Shown here one piece after another: positions 13,163 to 23,792 of a DNA stretch of 64,000 bases. The DNA is from Planctomycetota bacterium. Lineage in GTDB: Bacteria > Planctomycetota > Planctomycetia > Pirellulales > Pirellulaceae. Position 1 is the first letter of the stretch; the number at the start of each line of letters is the position of its first letter. The notes under the pieces were generated by a model. That model saw only the letters and a program-made list of their open reading frames with translations. It was not told the origin of the DNA and searched no databases. Both the position numbers and the translations under genes were made by a program. The stretch spans positions 404,716 through 468,715 of the forward strand of contig JABAAE010000003.1 in the NCBI GenBank assembly GCA_014238905.1. The letters run 5' to 3'.

Positions 13163-13591
13163 TCAGTCCCTGTACTCAACCTCGAAGTTCGCGGTGTTCT
13201 TTTTTGCTTCCACCGTAAACGTCAAAGGCGTCGTTTTTCGATCGGCAAACTTGACACTCACATCACCCCCGTGACTATGCTGGTGCTCCGGTACTTTGTC
13301 GTAAAAAATGAATTGCTTAACGACGACAGTGAATTGCCCTTCGCATGCTCCGTCATCACTATCGATGGTAGTGAGGCTGAAGGTCCCGTCAGAATTGATA
13401 CTTGCGGTTGCGGTCAGATTGCCGTTTTCTGGAATAAACTCAACAACTCCAGTTCGGACTGGCTCACCATCCGAAAAAGCAACCGTTCCGCTTACCTGGA
13501 AACGGGGTGGGTGTTTGTCTTTTTTGCAACCTACAAACAACGCCGAGAAAAGAGCAGCAACAATAAAAGCTGCTTTAATTGAATCCGTCAT
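13163..13591 (-). CDS. Lipoprotein with carboxypeptidase-regulatory-like fold
   Basis: 142 residues with a lipoprotein signal (AALFSALFVGCKKDK; Cys22). The mature part reads VSGTVAFSDGEPVRTGVVEFIP...ASINSDGTFSLTT, the beta-sandwich pattern of planctomycete carboxypeptidase-regulatory-like proteins, commonly paired with DUF1559 genes. A segment KVPEHQHSHGGDVSVKF adds an HxHxH cluster that could bind metal. Its start overlaps the end of the upstream DUF1559 gene by 17 bases, so the two form one operon. It is an envelope protein with no known biochemical role. Confidence 0.75.
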   Translation of the reverse strand: MTDSIKAAFIVAALFSALFVGCKKDKHPPRFQVSGTVAFSDGEPVRTGVVEFIPENGNLTATASINSDGTFSLTTIDSDDGACEGQFTVVVKQFIFYDKVPEHQHSHGGDVSVKFADRKTTPLTFTVEAKKNTANFEVEYRD

Positions 13592-14558
13592 AGCCTATTA
13601 TCTCACTGTCTGAACGATTGCAGAGTCGCCCCAATGTAATTGTGTCAATCGTATTGAAAATCGCCTGCACGCTCCCATCCGCCATGGCAAAATTGCAAAT
13701 CTGTGGATGGTAACTACCAAACTGAAAAACCAACGGCGTATCCTGAAACTTGTTGCGAACGATAGGAACACCTGGTCCTCCGACGCGGGCAATCGCGGAA
13801 AACTCCAGCCCCGAATAAATGGGGCCATCTATCGGCGACACTTTGAATTTGTTTGGAGGAATGTGCGCTTCGCCGACGAGAAAGGTGTTGCTGGTACCGT
13901 CGGTCAGGCTTGCGAATTTGATTTTATCAATCCATCCAGTCGGTGCACCGTTTTTACAAATTGGGCGGACGCTTATCAAAGATCCTGTTCCATTTCCGGC
14001 ATAGTAGAAGTCGGAACTCTCACCGATGGCCCCAGCAGAAACGTCTCCGTGGTTAGCTGCATAATCCCCAAGAGCTCCGCCTGGAATACGAGCGGTCGTA
14101 CCGCCACACCCACAAGGGGCCCGTTGTTCTACTACGGTTTCTTCGGATACCGCAGTTTCATGATTTCGGCGACTAGGACAGACGAACATCGGTAATGATT
14201 GTTTGATCGAATCCATCGGAGCTGACTCAAAACTCTGAAAAATGTCGAAATCATCGTATAGGTTTGACTGTTCTAAATAAGGCATTATGTGAACAAACCA
14301 AGACGGTTGATCCTTGGCGCAACTGTGTTCGACGGGTTCCCCAGGTCGTGTAGCGAAGCGGGCAGGAGGAAGAAACTTCCTGACATCGTGATAAATGACC
14401 ACCGACAGGGCCATTTGTTTCAAATTGTTCTGACAATTGATTCGATTGGCAGATTCTCTTGCCGACTGGACGGCAGGCAGTAATAAAGCAATTAAAACAC
14501 CAATGATGGCGATAACCACCAAGAGCTCAACTAAAGTAAATGCTTGTCTTGACTTCAT
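13575..14558 (-). CDS. DUF1559 pseudopilin-like protein
   Basis: 327 residues from ATG 14558; the TTG two codons upstream is less likely. The N-terminus [19 protein letters not shown] is a type IV prepilin-like cleavage and membrane helix. The C-terminus has the H-X9-DG motif (SYHPQICNFAMADGSVQAI). Between them is the DUF1559 domain, one of the most expanded families in planctomycetes, thought to form envelope or pilus-like structures but uncharacterised. Cysteine pairs (FVCPS, APCGCGG) may form disulfides. It is co-transcribed with the lipoprotein gene and divergent from the His-rich protein gene at 14801. Confidence 0.9.
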   Translation of the reverse strand: MKSRQAFTLVELLVVIAIIGVLIALLLPAVQSARESANRINCQNNLKQMALSVVIYHDVRKFLPPARFATRPGEPVEHSCAKDQPSWFVHIMPYLEQSNLYDDFDIFQSFESAPMDSIKQSLPMFVCPSRRNHETAVSEETVVEQRAPCGCGGTTARIPGGALGDYAANHGDVSAGAIGESSDFYYAGNGTGSLISVRPICKNGAPTGWIDKIKFASLTDGTSNTFLVGEAHIPPNKFKVSPIDGPIYSGLEFSAIARVGGPGVPIVRNKFQDTPLVFQFGSYHPQICNFAMADGSVQAIFNTIDTITLGRLCNRSDSEIIGYDGFN

Positions 14559-14800
14559 TTCCAACTCTAAGATAGAGTAATGGCGAAGCCGAGGATTTTG
14601 CTATGATGATAGGAAATTATTATTTTCTTTCCAATCGCGGCACGAAATTTTGCTGAAAAAGTTGAAAATATTTAAGATGTTGAGCCAATTATTAAGTTGA
14701 TAAAGATTTGAACTTTTCGCCCTTGTCTTGCGTCTAGCCTAATAAGAAAAGTCAAATTTGCATCAGCCGAAAGTGAATCAGTTTCCTGCTTTTTAAAAAA
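14559..14800. promoter_or_regulatory. AT-rich divergent intergenic region
   Basis: About 240 bases separate a minus-strand DUF1559/lipoprotein operon from a plus-strand His-rich protein gene. The stretch is visibly richer in A and T than its flanks (for example around 14610-14720). It must carry two divergent promoters, so both arms may answer to one regulator. I can see a loose inverted repeat, GGAAATTATTATTTTC, near 14611-14626, but no convincing match to a known metal-regulator box. Confidence 0.4.
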
Positions 14801-15196
14801 ATGACGATCAAGCGAGCATTTTCTTCTGTTCTCCTTTTTGCATTTGCTGTCTTTTCAGCGGGTGGTTCGGGATTACATTATGCGCCGTTTTTTGGTCACC
14901 ATCATTTTCATGAAACTGAAAGTCAGGAGGAAATTGTTCCGAGTTGTTGTGGACATGTTCACCACTCCGAACCAGACGACAGCGCTTCTAGATTAGCGTC
15001 AAATCACGATCAATCAGATAACTGTGATGGACACTGCTTAATCTGCGAATTTTTCTCTAGTATTACATTGGAATGCATTACGGAGAGTTCTTTCCGTTTG
15101 GACGTCACAGCGGTCCAAGCAATTACCGGTCAAGCAAAGTCGGTTGACATTGACTTGATACCGGTCTTCTATCAGCGTGGCCCGCCTCTAGCATAG
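14801..15196 (+). CDS. Small exported His/Cys-rich protein (copy A)
   Basis: 131 residues with a signal peptide (SVLLFAFAVFSAGGSG). The mature chain has three candidate metal-binding clusters: FFGHHHFHETES, CCGHVHHSEPDD and CDGHCLICEFFSS. It ends in a hydrophobic stretch and a terminal RGPPLA. The CxxCxFF core and RGPP end recall the small DUF2946-type proteins found near heavy-metal genes, although I cannot confirm membership. A paralogue with the same cluster order and RGPPLS end lies at 16323-16721, on the other side of the DUF1559 gene. Likely role: periplasmic metal binding or sensing (inference). Confidence 0.7.
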   Translation: MTIKRAFSSVLLFAFAVFSAGGSGLHYAPFFGHHHFHETESQEEIVPSCCGHVHHSEPDDSASRLASNHDQSDNCDGHCLICEFFSSITLECITESSFRLDVTAVQAITGQAKSVDIDLIPVFYQRGPPLA

Positions 15197-15359
15197 CCGA
15201 TTCCCTGTTTTTCCAACGAATTGAATGGATACGAATGCGATCCGTCATTCCGTTGTTTGAAGCTGTAAGCGAGAAAACCTGAGTCTCGCGGTAGATCAAA
15301 TGCTTTAGACCATGACAATCAATTCGCGCGAACGAATGCGCGCTGAAAGAAGATATCAA

Positions 15360-16271
15360 ATGACCAGAAAGAACAAAAGGCTCGCTTTCACCCTCGTAGA
15401 GTTATTGGTCGTAATCGCGATCATTGGGATCTTGATCGCGTTACTGCTCCCTGCCGTGCAAGCCGCTCGTGAAGCAGCAAGAAGAACTCAATGCCATAAT
15501 AATTTGAAACAAATCGGACTCGCGATTCATAATTACAACGATACGTTGAAAACACTTCCACCGGGTTGGCTTGCAGACGAACCGCTAGGGGAACCCGGCT
15601 GGGGATTACTGGCGTACAGCCTCCCTTTTATGGAGTATGGCAATATCCACGACCAAATCGAATTCAGTTTTGGCATTGGTGAAGAAATTAACGAGGACGT
15701 CAGGATGACTCAATTTCCAATTTTTAAATGCCCCTCCGACTTGCCGGACGACATTTTCGAATTGGGACATCTTCCAGGCTACGACGATGATCATGATCAC
15801 AACTCTGGCTTTGGATTATTGGACAATCATGATCATGATCATGATGATGAGCCCGTCTTGGTTTCCAAATGCAATTATTCAGGCGTTTTTGGTGATACCG
15901 AAATCGATGAAACGCCAGCGAGTGGTCGCGGATTGTTTTACTTTCGCAGCCGCCACCGCCTCGCAGACATCCATGATGGATTGAGCAATACTTTTTTAAT
16001 GGGAGAAAGAAATATAGCATTGGGGCCTGTGACCTGGGTCGGGGTGCATCACGACGCCGACGCACCATTCGCGAGGCATATCGGATCTTGCGACCATGTA
16101 CCCAACTCGCCGGTAGGACATTTTGAAGATTTCCGAAGCTACCACCCTCTCGGAGCAAACTTTTTAATGGGTGACGGTAGCGTGCACTTGATTCCGGAAT
16201 ACATTGACGCTGCGGTATACCAAGGTTTTTCGACCAGAAACAACGGAGAAACGGTAAATCTGCCCCAATAA
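15360..16271 (+). CDS. DUF1559 pseudopilin-like protein with His/Asp repeat insert
   Basis: 303 residues from ATG 15360; the frame is open from 15312, but that start puts 16 charged residues before the prepilin signal. [20 protein letters not shown] is the prepilin-like helix, and [20 protein letters not shown] is the H-X9-DG motif. Between them, at about residues 141-164, is an unusual insert with YDDDHDHN and [10 protein letters not shown], encoded by repeated GATCATGATCAT. Further His pairs ([16 protein letters not shown]) follow. Such acidic His runs bind zinc, nickel or copper in other proteins. The two flanking genes encode His/Cys-rich exported proteins. Confidence 0.9.
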
Positions 16272-16322
16272 GAATTTGGCAGTTGCCTTTTTTGCCTAGC
16301 GAAAAATCATGCGAGCGGACCA

Positions 16323-16721
16323 ATGAATTCAAAATTAATATCAGTTTGGATACTAACAACATACTTGGCAGTTCTGCTGAGTTGGGGCGATGCATTGCAT
16401 CGTTTGCCATGCTTTGGACATCATCACTCAACGATTGAAAAAGCCAGTGTTGCCGATACCGATAATCTCTGTTGCGGTCATCATCACCTGAGGTGCCATC
16501 AGAGCGAGAATCCAAAACCGCCAGCCGAATTTTGCGAATCCGCATCATCAGAAGATGGACCTTGCCTAATTTGCGAGTTCTTCGCGAAATACCATGCCAG
16601 CGTTGGTACATTCGAGCTGGCGAAAACTGCCGATCCCCATCGTGCGCAAGTCTACCCCGATCACCGGGCTGCCAATTCAGCGATCATTCCGCCTGCCGCA
16701 CGTGGGCCGCCGCTTTCTTAA
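16323..16721 (+). CDS. Small exported His/Cys-rich protein (copy B)
   Basis: 132 residues, paralogous to the protein at 14801. It has a signal peptide (LISVWILTTYLAVLLSWGDA), then CFGHHHSTIEK, CCGHHHLRCHQSE and GPCLICEFFAK, and a terminal RGPPLS. The shared order HHH cluster, CCGH cluster, CLICEFF and RGPPL, with little identity between, indicates an old duplication under selection on the putative ligands. It follows the DUF1559 gene by 51 bases. Role inferred as extracytoplasmic metal binding. Confidence 0.7.
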   Translation: MNSKLISVWILTTYLAVLLSWGDALHRLPCFGHHHSTIEKASVADTDNLCCGHHHLRCHQSENPKPPAEFCESASSEDGPCLICEFFAKYHASVGTFELAKTADPHRAQVYPDHRAANSAIIPPAARGPPLS

Positions 16722-16895
16722 TGTCTCAATCTCTTCGAAGAGTTTGATACCTAAACACAAACTTCCATTAGTCCTTGATGCTCAGAGTTTCAATAAACCG
16801 TTGAAGCGAAGAGGTATCAGGCGTCGTTGAAGTTCTCTTAAGGTGGATTCCAAGTTATTGGCTTAGGCATCTCACATCATGATTAAGGTGCGCTA

Positions 16896-16911
16896 GTTTC
16901 GTCAACGAAAC
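16896..16911. promoter_or_regulatory. Candidate palindromic operator
   Basis: GTTTCGT-CA-ACGAAAC is a perfect 7-bp inverted repeat with a 2-base centre. It sits about 100 bases upstream of the DUF58-led operon, in a 288-base gap with no gene. The spacing suits a dimeric repressor site better than an RNA hairpin. No other copy was noticed in this window. Confidence 0.35.
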
Positions 16912-17009
16912 AGCGACAAACCATATTCAATAGATCACTCATCGGGTTACCACAAAGTGACTGGTAAACGATTCCGGAGCGATCAACCAGATAGATGGAT
17001 AGGGACAAA

Positions 17010-18329
17010 ATGAAAACACTTGCAGAGATCTCTTTTGGAGCGAAATCTTTTCTGAATTCCCTTCTGAATCACAACATCTTGCCCATCGCCGATCCTCTTC
17101 TGAGCTGGCTTAAACAGCCGGTAGGCTGGGTTGTTTGTGCGACGATTTCATCATTGATGATTGGTTTGTGCATTGGGCCACAAGGATTCGTTCTCATGTG
17201 GTCATTTATCTCTCTTCTGGTCATCGGCTTTATTTGGCCGTGGGTTAGCATCCAGGCAATTAGCTCTGAATTGGTCTTCAAGGAGCGTAGAACGTCAGAG
17301 GGAAAGGAAACCCTCGCCATTCTCAAAATCAAGAATCGTTTTCCGGTGTTTATCCATGGGCTAACCGTGGAAGGCAGCTTTTTACAGGAAATCATCGATG
17401 AAGAGGATCTCGTGGTCGCCGGGTTGGAAAGGGTACCCGGATGGAGCGTTTCGGAATTCAAGTGGAAATTGACGCCAAATAAACGGGGGCAATTGCCTGC
17501 TACGCCACCAAAATTGGTGACTGGATTCCCCTTTGGAATTATCAGGTGTTCAAAAGACTTGATCGTTCAAAACAAGGTAATCGTTTGGCCTGCCAGTCAT
17601 TCGCTTCAAGGAAAACCTAAGTCATCCGCCTACAAGCTAGGGGCAAACGAAATCGCGGATTTGAAACCCGGAAAAAATGGAGAGACAAATGGCGTTCGAG
17701 AGTTTCGACAAGGTGATTCATTCAGAGACGTGCATTGGGCCAAAACCGCTCAAAACAGTCGATTGGTGGTCAAAGAGTTTCAATCAACTTCCCATAATTC
17801 AGTTCATATCATCCTGGATTTGTCATATTCGAGTCACTCCGGTTCTGGTGGCCAAAGTAGTTTTGAGTGGGCAATTCGAACCACTGCGTCAATCTGCCAA
17901 CAACTAGACAGCCATCGTTTTCTAATTCACTTAGAGTGTGTTGGATTGCCAAAATCTGCCTCTCGTTTTGCATCCAATGCAAAAGAGATATCAGATTTAC
18001 TCGATTTCCTTGCCTTGCTGCCGGAATTCGGATTTTACCAATCCAAAGAAAAAATCATCTTTTCTCGATCTCAAAAACAATCCTATTCACGCGCGGGTTT
18101 TACGTTTTTGGTATGCACCGATCGGTCATTTCTTCAACAGGGAATTTCACCAGAAGTCAAAAAAATTGAAATTGGATGTGATCTTTTTGACGCAGAGGCC
18201 AGCCCACCGGTTGGCCCTCGGAAAATCGACACCAAAGACAATCCCCAATCACTTTTCTTGAATTCGCCAACAACGGCAGCCTCAGACCTTTACAAGGGGT
18301 GGAAATCCCAATTCAGCTATGAGACCTAA
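17010..18329 (+). CDS. DUF58 membrane protein
   Basis: 439 residues from ATG 17010, chosen because AGGGA lies 5 bases upstream; ATG 16995 has no such site. Two membrane helices near the N-terminus (VGWVVCATISSLMIGLCIGP, LMWSFISLLVIGFIWPWVS) precede the DUF58 domain, whose signature REFRQGDSFRDVHWAKTA is at about 229-246, followed by a von-Willebrand-like segment (VHIILDLSYSSHS). DUF58 proteins work with MoxR AAA ATPases and transglutaminase-like membrane proteins in poorly understood envelope assembly. It opens a run of tightly packed genes to 23792. Confidence 0.9.
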   Translation: MKTLAEISFGAKSFLNSLLNHNILPIADPLLSWLKQPVGWVVCATISSLMIGLCIGPQGFVLMWSFISLLVIGFIWPWVSIQAISSELVFKERRTSEGKETLAILKIKNRFPVFIHGLTVEGSFLQEIIDEEDLVVAGLERVPGWSVSEFKWKLTPNKRGQLPATPPKLVTGFPFGIIRCSKDLIVQNKVIVWPASHSLQGKPKSSAYKLGANEIADLKPGKNGETNGVREFRQGDSFRDVHWAKTAQNSRLVVKEFQSTSHNSVHIILDLSYSSHSGSGGQSSFEWAIRTTASICQQLDSHRFLIHLECVGLPKSASRFASNAKEISDLLDFLALLPEFGFYQSKEKIIFSRSQKQSYSRAGFTFLVCTDRSFLQQGISPEVKKIEIGCDLFDAEASPPVGPRKIDTKDNPQSLFLNSPTTAASDLYKGWKSQFSYET

Positions 18330-20664
18330 ACCACCAATCCTTTTGAGCCGAATCCTTGGCAATCTCCCCCGCAGCACTCAGATTGCGATAGGCATTCTGG
18401 CATTTGCGGTGGTGCAATTGTTTCGCCCTCCTAACACACCGATGTTTTTATTGTCGTTGGAGTGCCTGTTCTACTTGGGAGCGCCGATTTTAATACTGGC
18501 GGCATTTCGCTCATCGCAAGGAACCTCGCATGAAATAAAACGTGGAAACCGCACCTTACGATTTCAGTTAATGGGAATCGCGTTCACTTGCAGTCCGTTG
18601 GTTGTACAAATTGGACTCAGGGCAATGAATTTTGGCGATGCCTACGAAGTTGTCGCAATTATGGCTGTACTAAATCTCGCTTGGTATTGCACCATTTTAT
18701 CTAAAGTTGCCAATTGCCAGAATGTCGCCTTCTTTCTAAATAGTTCTGTAGTGCTCTTTGTCTGCTTCGCAACACAAGATTCGATCGTCTATTCCGCTGC
18801 ATTTGCCTATTCGTTGACAGCCCTGTGGTGGATGCTTGAAAACTACTGGAACCGCCTGCTACCTACGAAACTCGGTGCTGAAACAACAGCTCTTCCCATT
18901 CGTGGTCTTGCATTTGTATGTTCGATTTTTATTTTGCTTTCGGTTGGCATTGTTGCCATCGCAGCCGGCCCGATTAGCAACGTTATAGCACTGCCAAGTT
19001 TGATGCCGTCATCCGGTGGCGAGCAAGGATTTGATGACATGTACGCCCGCTCGGGAGTAGGCGATGGTGAAATGTTAACAACCGGCGACAATGCAAAATC
19101 AGTCGGTGCGGTCGATACGGATCAATTCATCGAAGGTCAACAACCTTCCATCTACGACGTTGTATCTGAAAAATTCGACGGCCCGACAAAGATTCGCAAG
19201 AAGATGACTTCTGCACAGTCCCTATCTGAGATTGCAAAACACATTCACGAAGTCAAACAGGCCGAACAGTCAGGTCGAACTTTTCGGACCGTGAGAAACT
19301 CCCAAAAGACAATTACCAGAAAACTCGAAGACCGCATCTCCGACGCGCTTTTTTACGTTACGGGAAAAGTGCCAGTTCGATTCCGTGTAGATTGTTTCCA
19401 TGAATTCGACGGATGGGATTGGACGAAATCCCAAAGCCAAATCAGTACCCACCACCGGCCCAAGATAAATATGGAGGTCCATAATGGCAATTCCTGGTTT
19501 GTGCTTGACTTTCTACTCCCCAAATTTCTAAAGGGCGACTTACATCATCAAATCCAAATCCTTCGGCTGGATTCTGCTGCTTTACCATCGACACCGTTTA
19601 TCAAGGCCTGGCACATTGCCAAAGTAAACCAAAAAAATCTCTTTAAATGGGATCCTTCCAATTTAATTAGTATCCGAAGCGATACGATTGCTTCTCAAAC
19701 GGTGATCGACGTCATCAGTCACCGGGCCAACCTGTTCGATTTGCGAGCGATCCACCCGAGTTGCTTTCGCAAACATGAAGATCCCATTCTGACGCAACTA
19801 CCGATCAACGCCAATTCAACAAAAATCAGGAACCTAGCCGATTCCTTGACACAAGATGTAGAGCCGGGATGGCAGCAGGTCGAAGCCATTACCCGATACT
19901 TGAAAACTCATTTTGAACTTATTGAAGACGCGGCCCCGGATGATGAGTGTGACGATACTGTCGGCTGGTTTCTGAAAAATGGAGGCGGCCCTTCCTATCT
20001 GTTCGCAACGACCGCTGTTGAACTGCTAAGGTCGGCCGGCTATCAAACGAGACTGGCAACAGGTTTTGTGGTTAAAAAAAAGGACTACGTGCGAAAGCTT
20101 GGTCGGTCGATCGTCACACATGAAAACTATCACGTTTGGCCAGAAATCTGTTTTGATGGTTGCCATTGGATTCCGGTGGAACCAACTCCTGGCTTCGAGG
20201 AGCCTATTGGTTATCTGACTTTTTGGCAACGTGCCTTGATCCTGTACAAAACTCTCGTTGGGTGGGTGATTTCTCACCCCTTCCAGTCTGCCTGCGTACT
20301 CGTTTCGACATCGCTACTGTGCTACCTCCGCCGTTATTGGATAGCTTTTTTCATGTGGTGCCTATGGAAAGCATTTGCGTGGGGGTTACCAAGTACAAGA
20401 CTACGTATGACTCGCCAGTTGATTGATGCAAGGCTTTGGTTGTTCGGCGTTCCCAGACCAACCTACATCGCAATCCGCGACTGGTTTGGGAAAATCGACA
20501 AAAACCTCGGGGACGAATTTTTTGACTGTTGGAATCGAATGCAGTTTTGTGAGTCAATCCGTGAAATCATCCCGCGTAAGCAGGTTGAAATAGCATGCCG
20601 CAACATCGTCTCGCAATTAAGCCTCGCAAAAATAAGAAAGTATGGGCAACAAAAAAATGATTGA
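18319..20664 (+). CDS. Transglutaminase-like membrane protein, catalytic Cys replaced
   Basis: 781 residues. Five or so N-terminal membrane helices, an extracytoplasmic transglutaminase-like domain (about 480-625), then another helix and a cytoplasmic tail: the TgpA/YebA architecture. In active enzymes the triad is Cys (GxCxxFA), His and Asp. Here the motif is GGGPSYLFATT, so position 559 is Ser. His605 (NYHVWPEI) is kept, and the Asp position is Glu621 (VEPTPG). The domain is therefore likely non-catalytic or altered, a binding module rather than a protease. It overlaps the DUF58 gene by 11 bases and the MoxR gene by 23. Confidence 0.85.
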   Translation: MRPKPPILLSRILGNLPRSTQIAIGILAFAVVQLFRPPNTPMFLLSLECLFYLGAPILILAAFRSSQGTSHEIKRGNRTLRFQLMGIAFTCSPLVVQIGLRAMNFGDAYEVVAIMAVLNLAWYCTILSKVANCQNVAFFLNSSVVLFVCFATQDSIVYSAAFAYSLTALWWMLENYWNRLLPTKLGAETTALPIRGLAFVCSIFILLSVGIVAIAAGPISNVIALPSLMPSSGGEQGFDDMYARSGVGDGEMLTTGDNAKSVGAVDTDQFIEGQQPSIYDVVSEKFDGPTKIRKKMTSAQSLSEIAKHIHEVKQAEQSGRTFRTVRNSQKTITRKLEDRISDALFYVTGKVPVRFRVDCFHEFDGWDWTKSQSQISTHHRPKINMEVHNGNSWFVLDFLLPKFLKGDLHHQIQILRLDSAALPSTPFIKAWHIAKVNQKNLFKWDPSNLISIRSDTIASQTVIDVISHRANLFDLRAIHPSCFRKHEDPILTQLPINANSTKIRNLADSLTQDVEPGWQQVEAITRYLKTHFELIEDAAPDDECDDTVGWFLKNGGGPSYLFATTAVELLRSAGYQTRLATGFVVKKKDYVRKLGRSIVTHENYHVWPEICFDGCHWIPVEPTPGFEEPIGYLTFWQRALILYKTLVGWVISHPFQSACVLVSTSLLCYLRRYWIAFFMWCLWKAFAWGLPSTRLRMTRQLIDARLWLFGVPRPTYIAIRDWFGKIDKNLGDEFFDCWNRMQFCESIREIIPRKQVEIACRNIVSQLSLAKIRKYGQQKND

Positions 20665-21619
20665 TACGTCTTCGACAGCAGACATTTCGACTGTTGGGCC
20701 AAAATTGAGTTCATTGCGGAAGCAGTTGAATGAAGTTCTGATCGGCAAAAGCGATGTCGTGGAAATGATCATCACCTGCCTGATCGCCAACGGGCACCTG
20801 CTTTTCGACGATTTACCGGGCCTCGGTAAAACCACTGTCGCCAAAGCATTAGCCCAATCGATGGGAGGCAGGTTCTCCAGAGTGCAATGTACTCCGGATT
20901 TGCTGCCGACGGATATTACTGGATTCAACATACTTGATCAGGAAACCCAAACTTTCGAATTCCAGAAAGGCCCCGTCTTTTCTGATTTTTTACTGGCTGA
21001 CGAGATCAATCGTGCTACGCCCAGAACCCAAAGTGCCTTATTTGAGGCAATGGCAGAACGGCAGGTTACCGTCGACAACCGGACGATTCCGTTACCTGAT
21101 TCTTTTATGGTAATCGCGACGCAAAACCCGGTTGAAAGCCACGGCGCGTATCCACTGCCGGAGGCTCAATTGGACCGGTTTGCGATGAAGTTAAACATTG
21201 GGTACCCGCAAAGGTCGGACGAGATCATGATGCTCGGCAATTCAGTTGGCAATCAGACGGACACCTCGCCGGTTTACCCAGTTCTCGATTTAAAAGACCT
21301 TAAATCCATTCAAGCGGCCGTCGCAAACGTCGAAGTTTGTGAAGCGGTTAGGGGATATCTGGTTGATCTTGGTGCGGCAACTCGTCAACATCCCGAAGTC
21401 GAACTAGGACTAAGCCCTCGGGGATTGTTGCTCTGGCTTCGCGTCGCCCAAGCGTGGGCTTCGTTGGACAATCGAAGCTACGTCATTCCAGAGGATGTTC
21501 AGGCTATGTTTTTTCCTGTTTTGCGGGTGCGAGTAGCAGGTCAACAACCCGCAACAGATGCCATTCTCCAAGAAATAATTGAATCCGTACCAGTCCCAAA
21601 TGAAAGGATGCAAAAGTGA
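20642..21619 (+). CDS. MoxR-family AAA+ ATPase
   Basis: 325 residues. Walker A is DDLPGLGKTTVAKALA (about 57-72). Walker B is FLLADEINRATPRTQSALFE, followed by the MoxR sensor stretch VIATQNPVESHGAYPLPEAQ. The C-terminal lid has LGLSPRGLLLWLRVAQAWA. MoxR ATPases act as chaperones that remodel or insert metal cofactors into partner proteins, and they usually pair with DUF58 and von-Willebrand proteins. Here the gene comes third, after DUF58 and the transglutaminase-like gene, whereas MoxR usually leads. Its stop overlaps the GTG start of the next gene. Confidence 0.95.
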   Translation: MGNKKMIDTSSTADISTVGPKLSSLRKQLNEVLIGKSDVVEMIITCLIANGHLLFDDLPGLGKTTVAKALAQSMGGRFSRVQCTPDLLPTDITGFNILDQETQTFEFQKGPVFSDFLLADEINRATPRTQSALFEAMAERQVTVDNRTIPLPDSFMVIATQNPVESHGAYPLPEAQLDRFAMKLNIGYPQRSDEIMMLGNSVGNQTDTSPVYPVLDLKDLKSIQAAVANVEVCEAVRGYLVDLGAATRQHPEVELGLSPRGLLLWLRVAQAWASLDNRSYVIPEDVQAMFFPVLRVRVAGQQPATDAILQEIIESVPVPNERMQK

Positions 21620-22254
21620 AGATTCGAATGAGTTCCCCCTCGCGAAGTTACCGAATGGTACCTTCGTGCCTGTTCGTCGTCGTGCTCGAATTGTGTTTCG
21701 CCGGCTGCTCTCACGACACGGCCATCAACTTTTCTGAAAGACACGTACAAACATTAAGGAAGATGAAATTTCATCGTCCGGAAAACGCCAAGTTGGCCAC
21801 AATGCGGATGCGACAAATCCATAATGTGCTCAATTCTGAAACTGAAACCCCTGATCCGATTCAGTTTTCCATTGTGGAAGTCATACATGGGGAGGGAGGG
21901 GATTCTCATTCGCATTTCTACCTAGAATCGAAATGGAATCCAGAATTTGATGATGATCATGGGGGCATGAAAACGACAGTGAAAACACATCAACATCGTG
22001 TAGACATTTTCACCGAGTTGCTCGACATCGTCGCCTGGATGCCAAACATAGCGGCGGCTTCCAACCTGACGGAGGAAGAGTGGAACGCCGTCATATCTGC
22101 TTGTAATTCCATCGAGAAAATAATCGGACAAAAACTAAACAAAGACATTTCCACAACTGAGAAACGAGCCGCCTTTAAGCTGTTCGCAAGCCAGATAGAA
22201 CATCTTCTCTGTCAGCTGGAATCGATGTTCCCCCTAGCCAATGTAGATAAGTAG
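21616..22254 (+). CDS. His-rich lipoprotein of unknown function
   Basis: 212 residues from GTG 21616, which overlaps the MoxR stop as GTGA. The lipobox is VVLELCFAGCSHD (Cys31). A central segment has HGEGGDSHSHFYL, FDDDHGGMKTT and KTHQHRVDIF, dense in His and Asp. The C-terminal half is helical (ASNLTEEEWNAVISACNSIE). It lies 8 bases before the permease gene and in the same frame of overlapping genes, so it may be a substrate-binding or gatekeeping partner of that permease. No family recognised. Confidence 0.7.
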   Translation: MKIRMSSPSRSYRMVPSCLFVVVLELCFAGCSHDTAINFSERHVQTLRKMKFHRPENAKLATMRMRQIHNVLNSETETPDPIQFSIVEVIHGEGGDSHSHFYLESKWNPEFDDDHGGMKTTVKTHQHRVDIFTELLDIVAWMPNIAAASNLTEEEWNAVISACNSIEKIIGQKLNKDISTTEKRAAFKLFASQIEHLLCQLESMFPLANVDK

Positions 22255-22262
22255 GAATCCCG

Positions 22263-23792
22263 ATGCTTGAGCATTATTACTCGTGCGTTTTCCTTAGAGG
22301 ATCGCAAGTTGTTATTAACGCGGCGATTTGGATTGCCATCGGTTGTTTTGTCGCTAATGTATTTAGACAAATGCTGGGACCATCTAAAACGCGATTGCTT
22401 TTCGGCGAGGGAACTCGATTCGGACTCTTCATCGGTTGGTTGGTTGGCATGCTTTTGCCTGTCTGCTCTCTTGGAGTCATACCGGTTGTTCGTGAGATGC
22501 ATCGAGTTGGTATTAAGGGTGGCACGATCATCGCCTTTGGATTAACGGCTCCTTTGTTTAATCCCATTTCCGTTTTGTACGGCCTCACACTATCCGATCC
22601 GATTGCGATCATCGTTTTTACGTTTTCTGCGTTAGTCATTGTTTCATTGCTTGGATTTTTATGGGACCTGCTCTTCCCAATAAAAGAAAAATACATCGAA
22701 GATCCAGAACTGCCTACTGCCGGCATTCAACGGTCGGTGGCTTTGCTGGATAAGACAAGTCGAGAACTGATCGGACCTTCCATGGGCTACATTTTGATTG
22801 GCATCTGTGGTTCGGTACTGCTGATGACGTTGGTTCCAAAGGGAGCTCTTCAAGCTGAGGCGGAGCCTGACAAAATGTTCGCGCCAGTATTGATGGGTTT
22901 CGTAATGACGCCGGTTTACGCGACTCCGCTCCAGGCAATGGGGCAAATCGGAAGCATGTTTCAACACGGAAACTCAATCGGCGCCGCGTTTTCGCTTTTG
23001 ATCCTCGGTGCTGGCGTTAACATCGGAATTCTGATCTGGTTTGCCTCGGCGTTTGGTATCAAACGCGTTCTCGTCTTTTTCACGCTCCTGATGTCACTCA
23101 CCATAGGACTGGCCTATGCAATGAACAAACCGCTTTCTCCAAGAGGCGTACAGCCTTCGGGCCATACCCACGCTTTTGATATCTACACTCACCCCTATCA
23201 TCCGGCCCAAAAAGATCAATTTTCAACGGCAAGAGCAGATGTAAAGGAGTTTCGTCAAAAAAACGATTTTGGCGTAAGCTACCTGATCCTCACCATGATG
23301 GGGATTGCCATCCTGTTTACATTGATTGGCTACCTGGTGGACCTTGAATCATGGTATACAGCGAAGAAGGAATCCAGGAATAGATTGGATATTTCTTTAC
23401 CCGGGTGGTTCCTCGGAGGCCTGGCGATCGTGGCATTGATTATCAGCAGCCTGATTGGAACCTATCTTTATTATCCTCCCGCGAATCACCTCTTGTCTGA
23501 GTTGCGAGAAATCAATGCGAACTGCGTGATTGCCGCAAAATCCAAAGATTGGGAAGGTGTCAGAAAATGGGTGCCCTATTGTGAAGACCTTTCTCGTCGG
23601 CTGGAAGTTGGAGTCTTTCTTAGAGAAGGTAGCGTTTCTGATTATCGATCAACGATTGCGGAACTTTATCGAGACAACCTGGACACCCTGCGAGATGCTG
23701 TGGAAGTTCAAAATTACCATCGCAGCGACGAATTTTCTCAAAACGTCGCCAATGCCTATATGCGGCTCAGCAAAGCGTACAGAGAGGATTGA
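22263..23792 (+). CDS. ArsP/DUF318-type permease with His-rich loop
   Basis: 509 residues. About eight membrane helices in two halves, with the ArsP_1 (predicted permease, DUF318) signature MLLPVCSLGVIPVVREMHR and GLTAPLFNPISV. Members export organoarsenicals or are of unknown substrate. The usual CSCG element is CSLG here, so one of the two cysteines is missing. The loop between halves (around 300-315) reads GHTHAFDIYTHPYHPAQ. A last helix at about 375-400 is followed by a roughly 100-residue soluble helical tail. It closes the overlapping operon. Confidence 0.85.
   Translation: MLEHYYSCVFLRGSQVVINAAIWIAIGCFVANVFRQMLGPSKTRLLFGEGTRFGLFIGWLVGMLLPVCSLGVIPVVREMHRVGIKGGTIIAFGLTAPLFNPISVLYGLTLSDPIAIIVFTFSALVIVSLLGFLWDLLFPIKEKYIEDPELPTAGIQRSVALLDKTSRELIGPSMGYILIGICGSVLLMTLVPKGALQAEAEPDKMFAPVLMGFVMTPVYATPLQAMGQIGSMFQHGNSIGAAFSLLILGAGVNIGILIWFASAFGIKRVLVFFTLLMSLTIGLAYAMNKPLSPRGVQPSGHTHAFDIYTHPYHPAQKDQFSTARADVKEFRQKNDFGVSYLILTMMGIAILFTLIGYLVDLESWYTAKKESRNRLDISLPGWFLGGLAIVALIISSLIGTYLYYPPANHLLSELREINANCVIAAKSKDWEGVRKWVPYCEDLSRRLEVGVFLREGSVSDYRSTIAELYRDNLDTLRDAVEVQNYHRSDEFSQNVANAYMRLSKAYRED

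Follow-up and report, generated by a model that had tools for sequence, protein, structure and literature searches.

Two putative metal-sensing arrest leaders precede a prepilin-type DUF1559 gene and a DUF58 operon in a Pirellulaceae genome

The closest characterised systems to the small proteins considered here are CruR of Bordetella pertussis and CutF of Rhodobacter capsulatus, both described as sensing copper (PMC9426467, PMC9973294). CruR is a DUF2946 (PF11162) protein whose gene precedes that of a TonB receptor, with an intergenic gap of 162 nt; copper sensed through its CxxC lifts the arrest at RAPP, and the transcript is terminated by Rho (PMC9426467). Both CxxC and RAPP are needed, and they lie 45 residues apart, a distance conserved within one or two residues (PMC9426467). 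CutF has the opposite sign, in that metal prolongs stalling and the downstream genes are induced, and the CutF paper argues that such leaders are not all copper-specific (PMC9973294). Fujiwara et al. (PMC12992588) rank RGPP and RAPP as the most robust of the arrest cores; they report a strong exclusion of RAPP-like motifs from the proteomes of bacteria, a tendency of RAPP and RGPP to sit near the ends of small exported proteins, and such leaders ahead of sec, DsbA and thioredoxin-like genes as well. For Planctomycetes, a few CruR homologues have already been noted (PMC9426467) and LPPP uORFs have been mentioned (PMC10987492). The main text of PMC12992588 holds 'Planctomyc' once, in a figure legend, and contains neither 'pilin', 'prepilin' nor 'DUF'; the class may be listed in its figures or supplements. 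A literature search, covering the main text in the case of PMC12992588, found nothing on DUF1559 together with such leaders.

We analysed a window, that is, the whole 64,000-nucleotide stretch of DNA under study, in which a DUF1559 gene is flanked on the same strand by two small ORFs, S1 of 131 codons and S2 of 132 codons. The features of this part of the window are as follows.

14801..15196, + strand: S1, small Cys/His-rich ORF, proposed as a metal-sensing leader of arrest type for the DUF1559 gene; CLIC at 15035-15046, RGPP codons at 15176-15187, then 2 residues and the stop; CxxC-RGPP spacing 43
15197..15359, + strand: leader region from S1 to the DUF1559 start, 163 nt
15325-15342, + strand: hairpin CGCGC/GCGCG, close to the SD-like AGAAG
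15360..16271, + strand: DUF1559 (PF07596) prepilin-type gene of the GHFEDF-signature subfamily; longest ORF from 15312
15780..15851, + strand: His/Asp-rich insert of the DUF1559 protein, a predicted disordered loop between two strands
15780-15803 and 15822-15851, + strand: the His/Asp runs of the insert, YDDDHDHN and a second run
16323..16721, + strand: S2, small Cys/His-rich ORF, proposed as a leader of arrest type for the DUF58 operon; CLIC at 16563-16574, RGPP codons at 16701-16712, then 2 residues and the stop; CxxC-RGPP spacing 42
16722..16994, + strand: leader region from S2 to the DUF58 gene, 273 nt

S1 and S2 have in common GHHH, a CCGH cluster, CLICEFF and a terminal RGPPLA or RGPPLS, with His clusters beside the CxxC. 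A preliminary description of this DNA had reported twin ORFs sharing HHH, CCGH, CLICEFF and terminal RGPPL around a DUF1559 protein with YDDDHDHN and a second His/Asp run, and we could confirm all of these elements in the sequence. The two ORFs are homologous, since a search with S2 returned S1 in its own genome at E = 6e-10; in the protein database, S2 had four homologues at E<=1e-3, S2 itself among them. Their N-termini look signal-like by eye, and both proteins would on this basis be exported. Like CruR, S1 and S2 are small, predicted exported first ORFs that contain a CxxC and, a few residues from their stop, an R[A/G]PP, and that are separated by a long gap from a same-strand target; the spacing of 42-46 in their family compares with 45 in CruR. 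Unlike CruR, they possess extra His clusters and fall below the Pfam cut-off, and the targets are DUF1559 or Flp pilin-like proteins and DUF58-transglutaminase-MoxR operons instead of TonB receptors or copper chaperones. With CutF, as described in its report, they share the make-up of an exported leader with a Cys motif and a Pro-rich C-terminus ahead of a (here putative) extracytoplasmic metal protein; however, CutF has CxxxC, a poly-Pro end and a stem-loop over the target SD, whereas S1 and S2 have CxxC and RGPP, and S1 shows no clear stem-loop. The C-terminal RGPP, the small exported proteins and the diverse downstream genes also resemble the RAPP/RGPP arrest peptides as Fujiwara et al. present them (PMC12992588).

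To describe the family, we searched a profile of 15 sequences (S1, S2 and 13 relatives) across 241 genomes of the window's family and found matches in 84 of them, while a phylum-wide search matched in 4 of 294 genomes, two of which belong to the window's family. The family search yielded 116 rows, including S1 and S2 and with two rows representing one gene (in the same-genus genome G001); the 84 leaders that were read comprise S1, S2 and 82 from among the 114 rows that lie outside the window, and 31 further stretches were added afterwards. In the alignment of the 15 sequences, mean column identity is 23%, and six columns are invariant, namely both Cys of CxxC and the R, G, P and P. Conservation of only CxxC and RGPP is what is expected of a nascent-chain sensor and not of a stable metal store. 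R[GA]PP followed by 1-12 residues forms the C-terminal end in 83 of the 84 leaders read, the lone exception (L086) ending in REPP, and in each of these 83 a CxxC precedes it by 42-46 residues; four of them (L062, L074, L079 and L113) contain a later CxxC at 5, 30, 30 and 15 residues besides the earlier one at 42, 42, 42 and 44. We then assembled a set of 149 distinct leaders, defined as ORFs of at least 80 aa with at least 3 His, an R[AG]PP that is trailed by no more than 14 residues and preceded by a CxxC at a distance of 38-50 residues, a set which includes S1, S2 and 83 of the 84 leaders read (not L086). The spacing was 42-46 in 149 of 149, although the selection allowed 38-50, and was distributed as 42 (n=43), 43 (n=53), 44 (n=37), 45 (n=1) and 46 (n=15). 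Specificity of the motif was tested on 6170 ORFs of at least 80 aa from the fetched loci L040-L229 and the window, many of these loci having been picked for holding such an ORF: R[AG]PP occurred within 14 residues of the stop in 152 of the 6170, and in 151 of the 152 a CxxC lay 38-50 residues upstream. Among 11 permuted motifs, 7 gave 0-1 such ORFs, and the remaining 4, whose hits may overlap with R[AG]PP within one and the same ORF, gave 4-27. The motif hardly occurs in ORFs otherwise, and the pattern of S1 and S2 is not due to chance. As a side observation, the L193 locus contains, around 2100-2700, a leader with some 45 residues after RAPP, reflecting either loss of a stop codon or a sequence error.

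We also compared the family with DUF2946 (PF11162). S1 and S2 gave no match to this model, nor was there any in G000 at E<=1, and because they lie below the cut-off we do not file them as DUF2946 members. The model detected 4 of the 15 profile members at E<=10 (best 0.88). Matches over the cut-off occurred in 30 of the 241 family genomes, leaders of the S1/S2 family among them; at E<=1 the model also matched 9 of 14 control genomes, exceeding the cut-off in 1. The L027 leader, which heads a DUF1559 gene, reached 25.1 bits against a cut-off of 23.7. Profile-profile comparison of the 15-leader profile with 10 DUF2946 matches (2 from Bradyrhizobium and 8 from the window's family, all picked for having both motifs) gave 97.4% with E 1e-11. 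Judging from these comparisons, S1 and S2 probably work like CruR and share ancestry with it.

DUF1559 proteins are a large, uncharacterised planctomycete group, with 74 genes reported in Rhodopirellula baltica (PMC2754498). The window protein matches PF07596 (SBP_bac_10/DUF1559) with 182.3 bits (cut-off 23.3) and N_methyl with 28.8 bits (cut-off 21.2), and its gene likely starts at 15360 rather than 15312, as an SD-like AGAAG can be seen by eye upstream. Like other DUF1559 or H-X9-DG proteins (PF07596, TIGR04294) it has the prepilin signal, the DUF1559 domain and the HX9DG end. Unlike DUF1559 proteins at large, it belongs to a subfamily with an invariant DHxxN before GHFEDF and a His/Asp/Glu loop after CPSD; Asp245, His246 and Asn249 do not vary among the 53 orthologues and lie beside the GHFEDF by which these were selected, and the three residues may form a second metal site. 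In the orthologues the insert sits between CPSD and the next strand and is rich in His, Asp and Glu, with 1-11 His in all and at least 4 His in 38 of 52. The richest 25-residue stretch of the window protein holds 15 His, Asp or Glu residues, versus at most 9 in the nine other readable DUF1559 proteins of the genome. An AlphaFold model of the protein (mean pLDDT 76) has a long N-terminal helix and a globular head, and the insert (model residues 139-161) has a pLDDT under 50, which is consistent with a flexible loop. A structure search with this model returned no PDB match at E<=0.001, the best being a type IVb pilus chain at E 0.6. The His/Asp loop is a probable metal-binding segment.

To find these genes by a route independent of the leaders, we searched the 241 genomes with DNA encoding GHFEDF, which lies outside the insert and takes no account of the small proteins or the loop, and obtained 75 matches in 69 genomes, as compared with 1 for the reversed control. 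Of 73 distinct GHFEDF ORFs, 20 were dropped for want of a readable prepilin motif (locus or contig ends, unrelated frames), leaving 53, of which 51 have at least 600 nt and 52 at least 590 nt of upstream sequence. We found a leader within 800 nt upstream in 38 of the 51 orthologues, and L193 has another, longer-tailed one. When the locus with 591 nt upstream is counted, this DUF1559-first set comprises 39 leaders; all 39 show a spacing of 42-46 (35-50 allowed), 32 of them of 43, and the gap between leader and DUF1559 gene is 36-475 nt across these loci. The 12 of 51 orthologues without a leader are 8 from one genus (g11) together with L166, L191, L005 and L223, and their inserts contain 2-3 His in g11 and 1-2 in L166 and L191 and are His-rich in L005 and L223. 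In the window's genome there are 20 DUF1559 matches, 10 of them, including the window's own, with a readable start; a leader precedes none of the other nine, and presence in only 1 of 10 indicates that the leader does not serve a general control of pilins. We considered whether leader and His-rich insert are correlated beyond shared descent. By count the association is strong (36/4/2/10, Fisher 3.5e-6); on the tree it comes down to just 5 changes and 4-5 independent pairs, which deprives the pairs test of power, and the association may follow phylogeny. In genus g11 (L179, L181-L187), the DUF1559 insert is Glu-rich and His-poor and no leader lies within about 750 nt.

S2 stands ahead of a different unit, the genes of which are the following.

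16995..18329, + strand: DUF58 protein, first gene of the S2 unit
18319..20664, + strand: transglutaminase-core protein
20642..21619, + strand: MoxR-type AAA ATPase
21616..22254, + strand: lipoprotein-like protein with the His-rich segments GDSHSHF, DDDHGG and HQH
22263..23792, + strand: ArsP_1 permease (PF03773) with a His-rich loop

Some other S2-type operons encode a homologue of the His-rich lipoprotein-like protein at the equivalent position, and the permease resembles efflux transporters below the cut-off (SaoE, 66.8 of 325 bits; SO_0444 Cu/Zn, 49.4 of 300). When the nearest gene recognised in the 720 nt behind a leader was taken as its target, using blastp against a small reference set, the 149 leaders were found to head DUF1559 in 90 cases (45 with HFEDF), DUF58 in 35, Flp pilin in 12, MoxR in 1 and other genes in 11. 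Among the 84 leaders read, 23, S2 included, have DUF58 within 720 nt, followed by a transglutaminase gene in 22 and MoxR in 21, and a His-rich lipoprotein or ArsP permease occurs in 7 of the 23 units within the 6 kb examined. On the tree of the 149 leaders, target class requires 37 changes versus 81.3 after shuffling, a clustering to which near-copies contribute. In this tree, S1 and the leader of the corresponding DUF1559 gene in G001 form one group (support 98/76), and S2 falls within leaders of DUF58 and of other DUF1559 genes. Motifs, spacing, gene order and conservation of the leaders can all be read directly from these loci.

The preliminary description had taken the three genes for one metal-binding pilin-like system with S1 and S2 as structural partners of the pilin-like protein, and proposed their co-occurrence as a test. 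The metal link and an insert conserved in position across orthologues are retained, as is the pairing of S1 with the DUF1559 gene seen in 38 of 51 orthologues, but for S2 the co-occurrence fails: its relatives head other units, and of 52 loci (49 with at least 500 nt downstream) the window is the sole one in which a GHFEDF DUF1559 gene is followed by another leader. Moreover, the S1-type and S2-type units of G001 lie on different contigs (L133, L096). Thus, we rejected the three-gene system and conclude that the twins are two leaders of two units, each belonging to the genes downstream of it, which happen to lie next to each other here. It is very improbable that S1 and S2 are stable periplasmic proteins working with a metal-binding DUF1559 polymer; the signal-like N-termini, the His/Cys clusters and the His/Asp insert would fit such a role, yet so little is conserved outside CxxC and RGPP, none of the 51 other loci has the second leader, RAPP-like motifs are as strongly excluded from proteomes as mentioned above (PMC12992588), and CruR and CutF themselves were not detected and are thought to be quickly degraded (PMC9426467, PMC9973294).

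Because a CxxC, 42-43 residues, an RGPP and a stop come together in ORFs that lie upstream of separate units, each of the two is likely to be a metal-sensing leader. We consider it fairly probable that S1 and S2 are metal-sensing, translation-arresting leaders, S1 controlling the DUF1559 gene and S2 the DUF58-transglutaminase-MoxR-lipoprotein-ArsP unit. For S1 and S2 we infer the stalling, the metal and the sign of control from the analogy with CruR: when metal is scarce, the ribosome would stall at RGPP in the growing peptide, and the genes behind the leader would be transcribed and translated; metal bound by the CxxC and the neighbouring His/Cys clusters as these leave the ribosome would relieve the arrest, and expression would fall. 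On this model, the pilin-like protein behind S1 would serve as a scavenger at the surface or in the periplasm. An alternative is that these arrest-type leaders monitor export or the redox state of the envelope in the manner of SecM or VemP, with CxxC as a disulfide switch and metal incidental, so that pilin-like cargo would be made only once the export and folding machinery is ready. That 102 of the 149 leaders lie ahead of pilin-like genes (90 DUF1559, 12 Flp) and 35 ahead of DUF58 would suit this alternative, as would the sec, DsbA and thioredoxin-like genes behind RAPP/RGPP leaders cited above (PMC12992588). We nevertheless regard it as improbable, in view of the CruR-like spacing, the His clusters beside CxxC, the His/Asp insert that targets in the S1 group carry, the ZIP/Fur neighbours at 4 of 52 loci, the His-rich lipoprotein neighbours and the restriction of the leader to 1 of the 10 readable DUF1559 genes of the genome.

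The direction of control bears on a further alternative, in which the same leaders act with the sign of CutF, metal prolonging the stalling and inducing metal-binding or metal-exporting products. CutF itself works in this way according to its report (PMC9973294), the S2 unit ends in an ArsP-type permease weakly similar to efflux families, and the S2 stop-to-start region folds more stably than shuffled sequences (z -2.55). On the other side, the leaders have CxxC, RGPP and CruR-like spacing instead of the CxxxC and poly-Pro end of CutF, and ZIP importers neighbour part of the S1 group, so that we find this sign unlikely though worth weighing against the CruR-like one. The region behind S1 folds no more stably than shuffles (z -0.6), and a CutF-like hairpin sequestering the SD is not significant there. 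We also looked for other RNA elements. Rfam gave no match, riboswitch or other element, at E<=1 within 14000-17300. C exceeds G in 85% of the 149 leaders in an 80-nt window at the leader end, a weak excess as a signature of Rho and one confounded by the Pro codons of RGPP, which contribute to it.

As to the metal that S1 and S2 would sense, zinc is our preference over copper, weakly held at somewhat under an even chance, with copper, which CruR and CutF sense, ranking second as a possibility to be taken seriously. A ZIP transporter and a Fur-family gene lie directly upstream at 4 of 52 DUF1559 loci, a lower bound since for 41 of the 52 the available upstream sequence is shorter than 3 kb; the ZIP at L001 matches PF02535 with 100 bits, and SodC is present at one of the 52 loci. 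A palindrome near TTGCAATTCGATTGCAA was found in the ZIP/Fur intergenic regions of L067, L078 and L094 and in the Fur/MerC region of L086, and was absent near the Fur genes next to leaders at L070, L077 and L089, in a scan that did not cover L221. With at most one mismatch, it occurs 10 times before 9 of the 149 leaders, where 0.22 would be expected from a first-order model or 1.6 from its density in all fetched loci, these sites included. None of the 9 carriers heads a GHFEDF DUF1559 gene, and the window contains no such Fur-type palindrome with up to 2 mismatches. The palindrome perhaps points to a Fur-family, maybe zinc, regulon for some leaders. The incomplete genome of the window has no match to the L001 Fur protein, and a ZIP relative is present elsewhere in it. 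A form TTGCAATTCxATTGCAA, seen in the ZIP/Fur and Fur/MerC regions of L001, L003, L094 and L086 and likewise ahead of some leaders, is a candidate Fur-family operator of planctomycetes. In Verrucomicrobiales, L009:69-3086 has in a row a Fur-like gene, an HDHDHD-rich lipoprotein, MerC and a prepilin-type gene, where no RGPP leader was seen; this locus was probably brought in by its DNHDHDHD pattern and is not independent evidence.

What is new in our proposal is a class of arrest-type leaders dedicated to pilin-like proteins, by which leader control of the arrest type would take in, besides copper and secretion genes, pilin-like proteins and an operon of DUF58, transglutaminase and MoxR genes. 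As a conserved leader with a testable ligand, S1 would give the condition under which one DUF1559 subfamily is made, and hence a handle on its function. In its most specific form, in which Pirellulaceae nascent-chain metal sensors lead pilin-like genes, the S1-branch leader reads zinc and switches on a surface pilin that captures zinc with its His/Asp loop, and a Zur-like repressor and a ZIP importer stand beside that leader in some lineages, the proposal is rather unlikely to hold in full; if true, no zinc-responsive arrest peptide would precede it, and a DUF1559 subfamily would have a function for the first time.

Some further arrangements were seen around the leaders. An Flp-type pilin gene (KKGQGLVEYG or similar) begins about 340-460 nt behind twelve leaders (L087, L093, L102, L104, L110, L112, L119, L123, L127, L136, L147 and L154). 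At L132 and L118, a His-rich lipoprotein-like or exported protein is encoded behind the leader, in keeping with a metal link. Within the window, a second DUF1559 gene and a carboxypeptidase-regulatory-like protein gene lie at 13163-14564 on the - strand, divergent from S1, and the same pair is found upstream of leaders in L057, L058 and L065. Finally, L250, L256, L257 and L258 contain divergent pairs of RGPP leaders that point away from each other.
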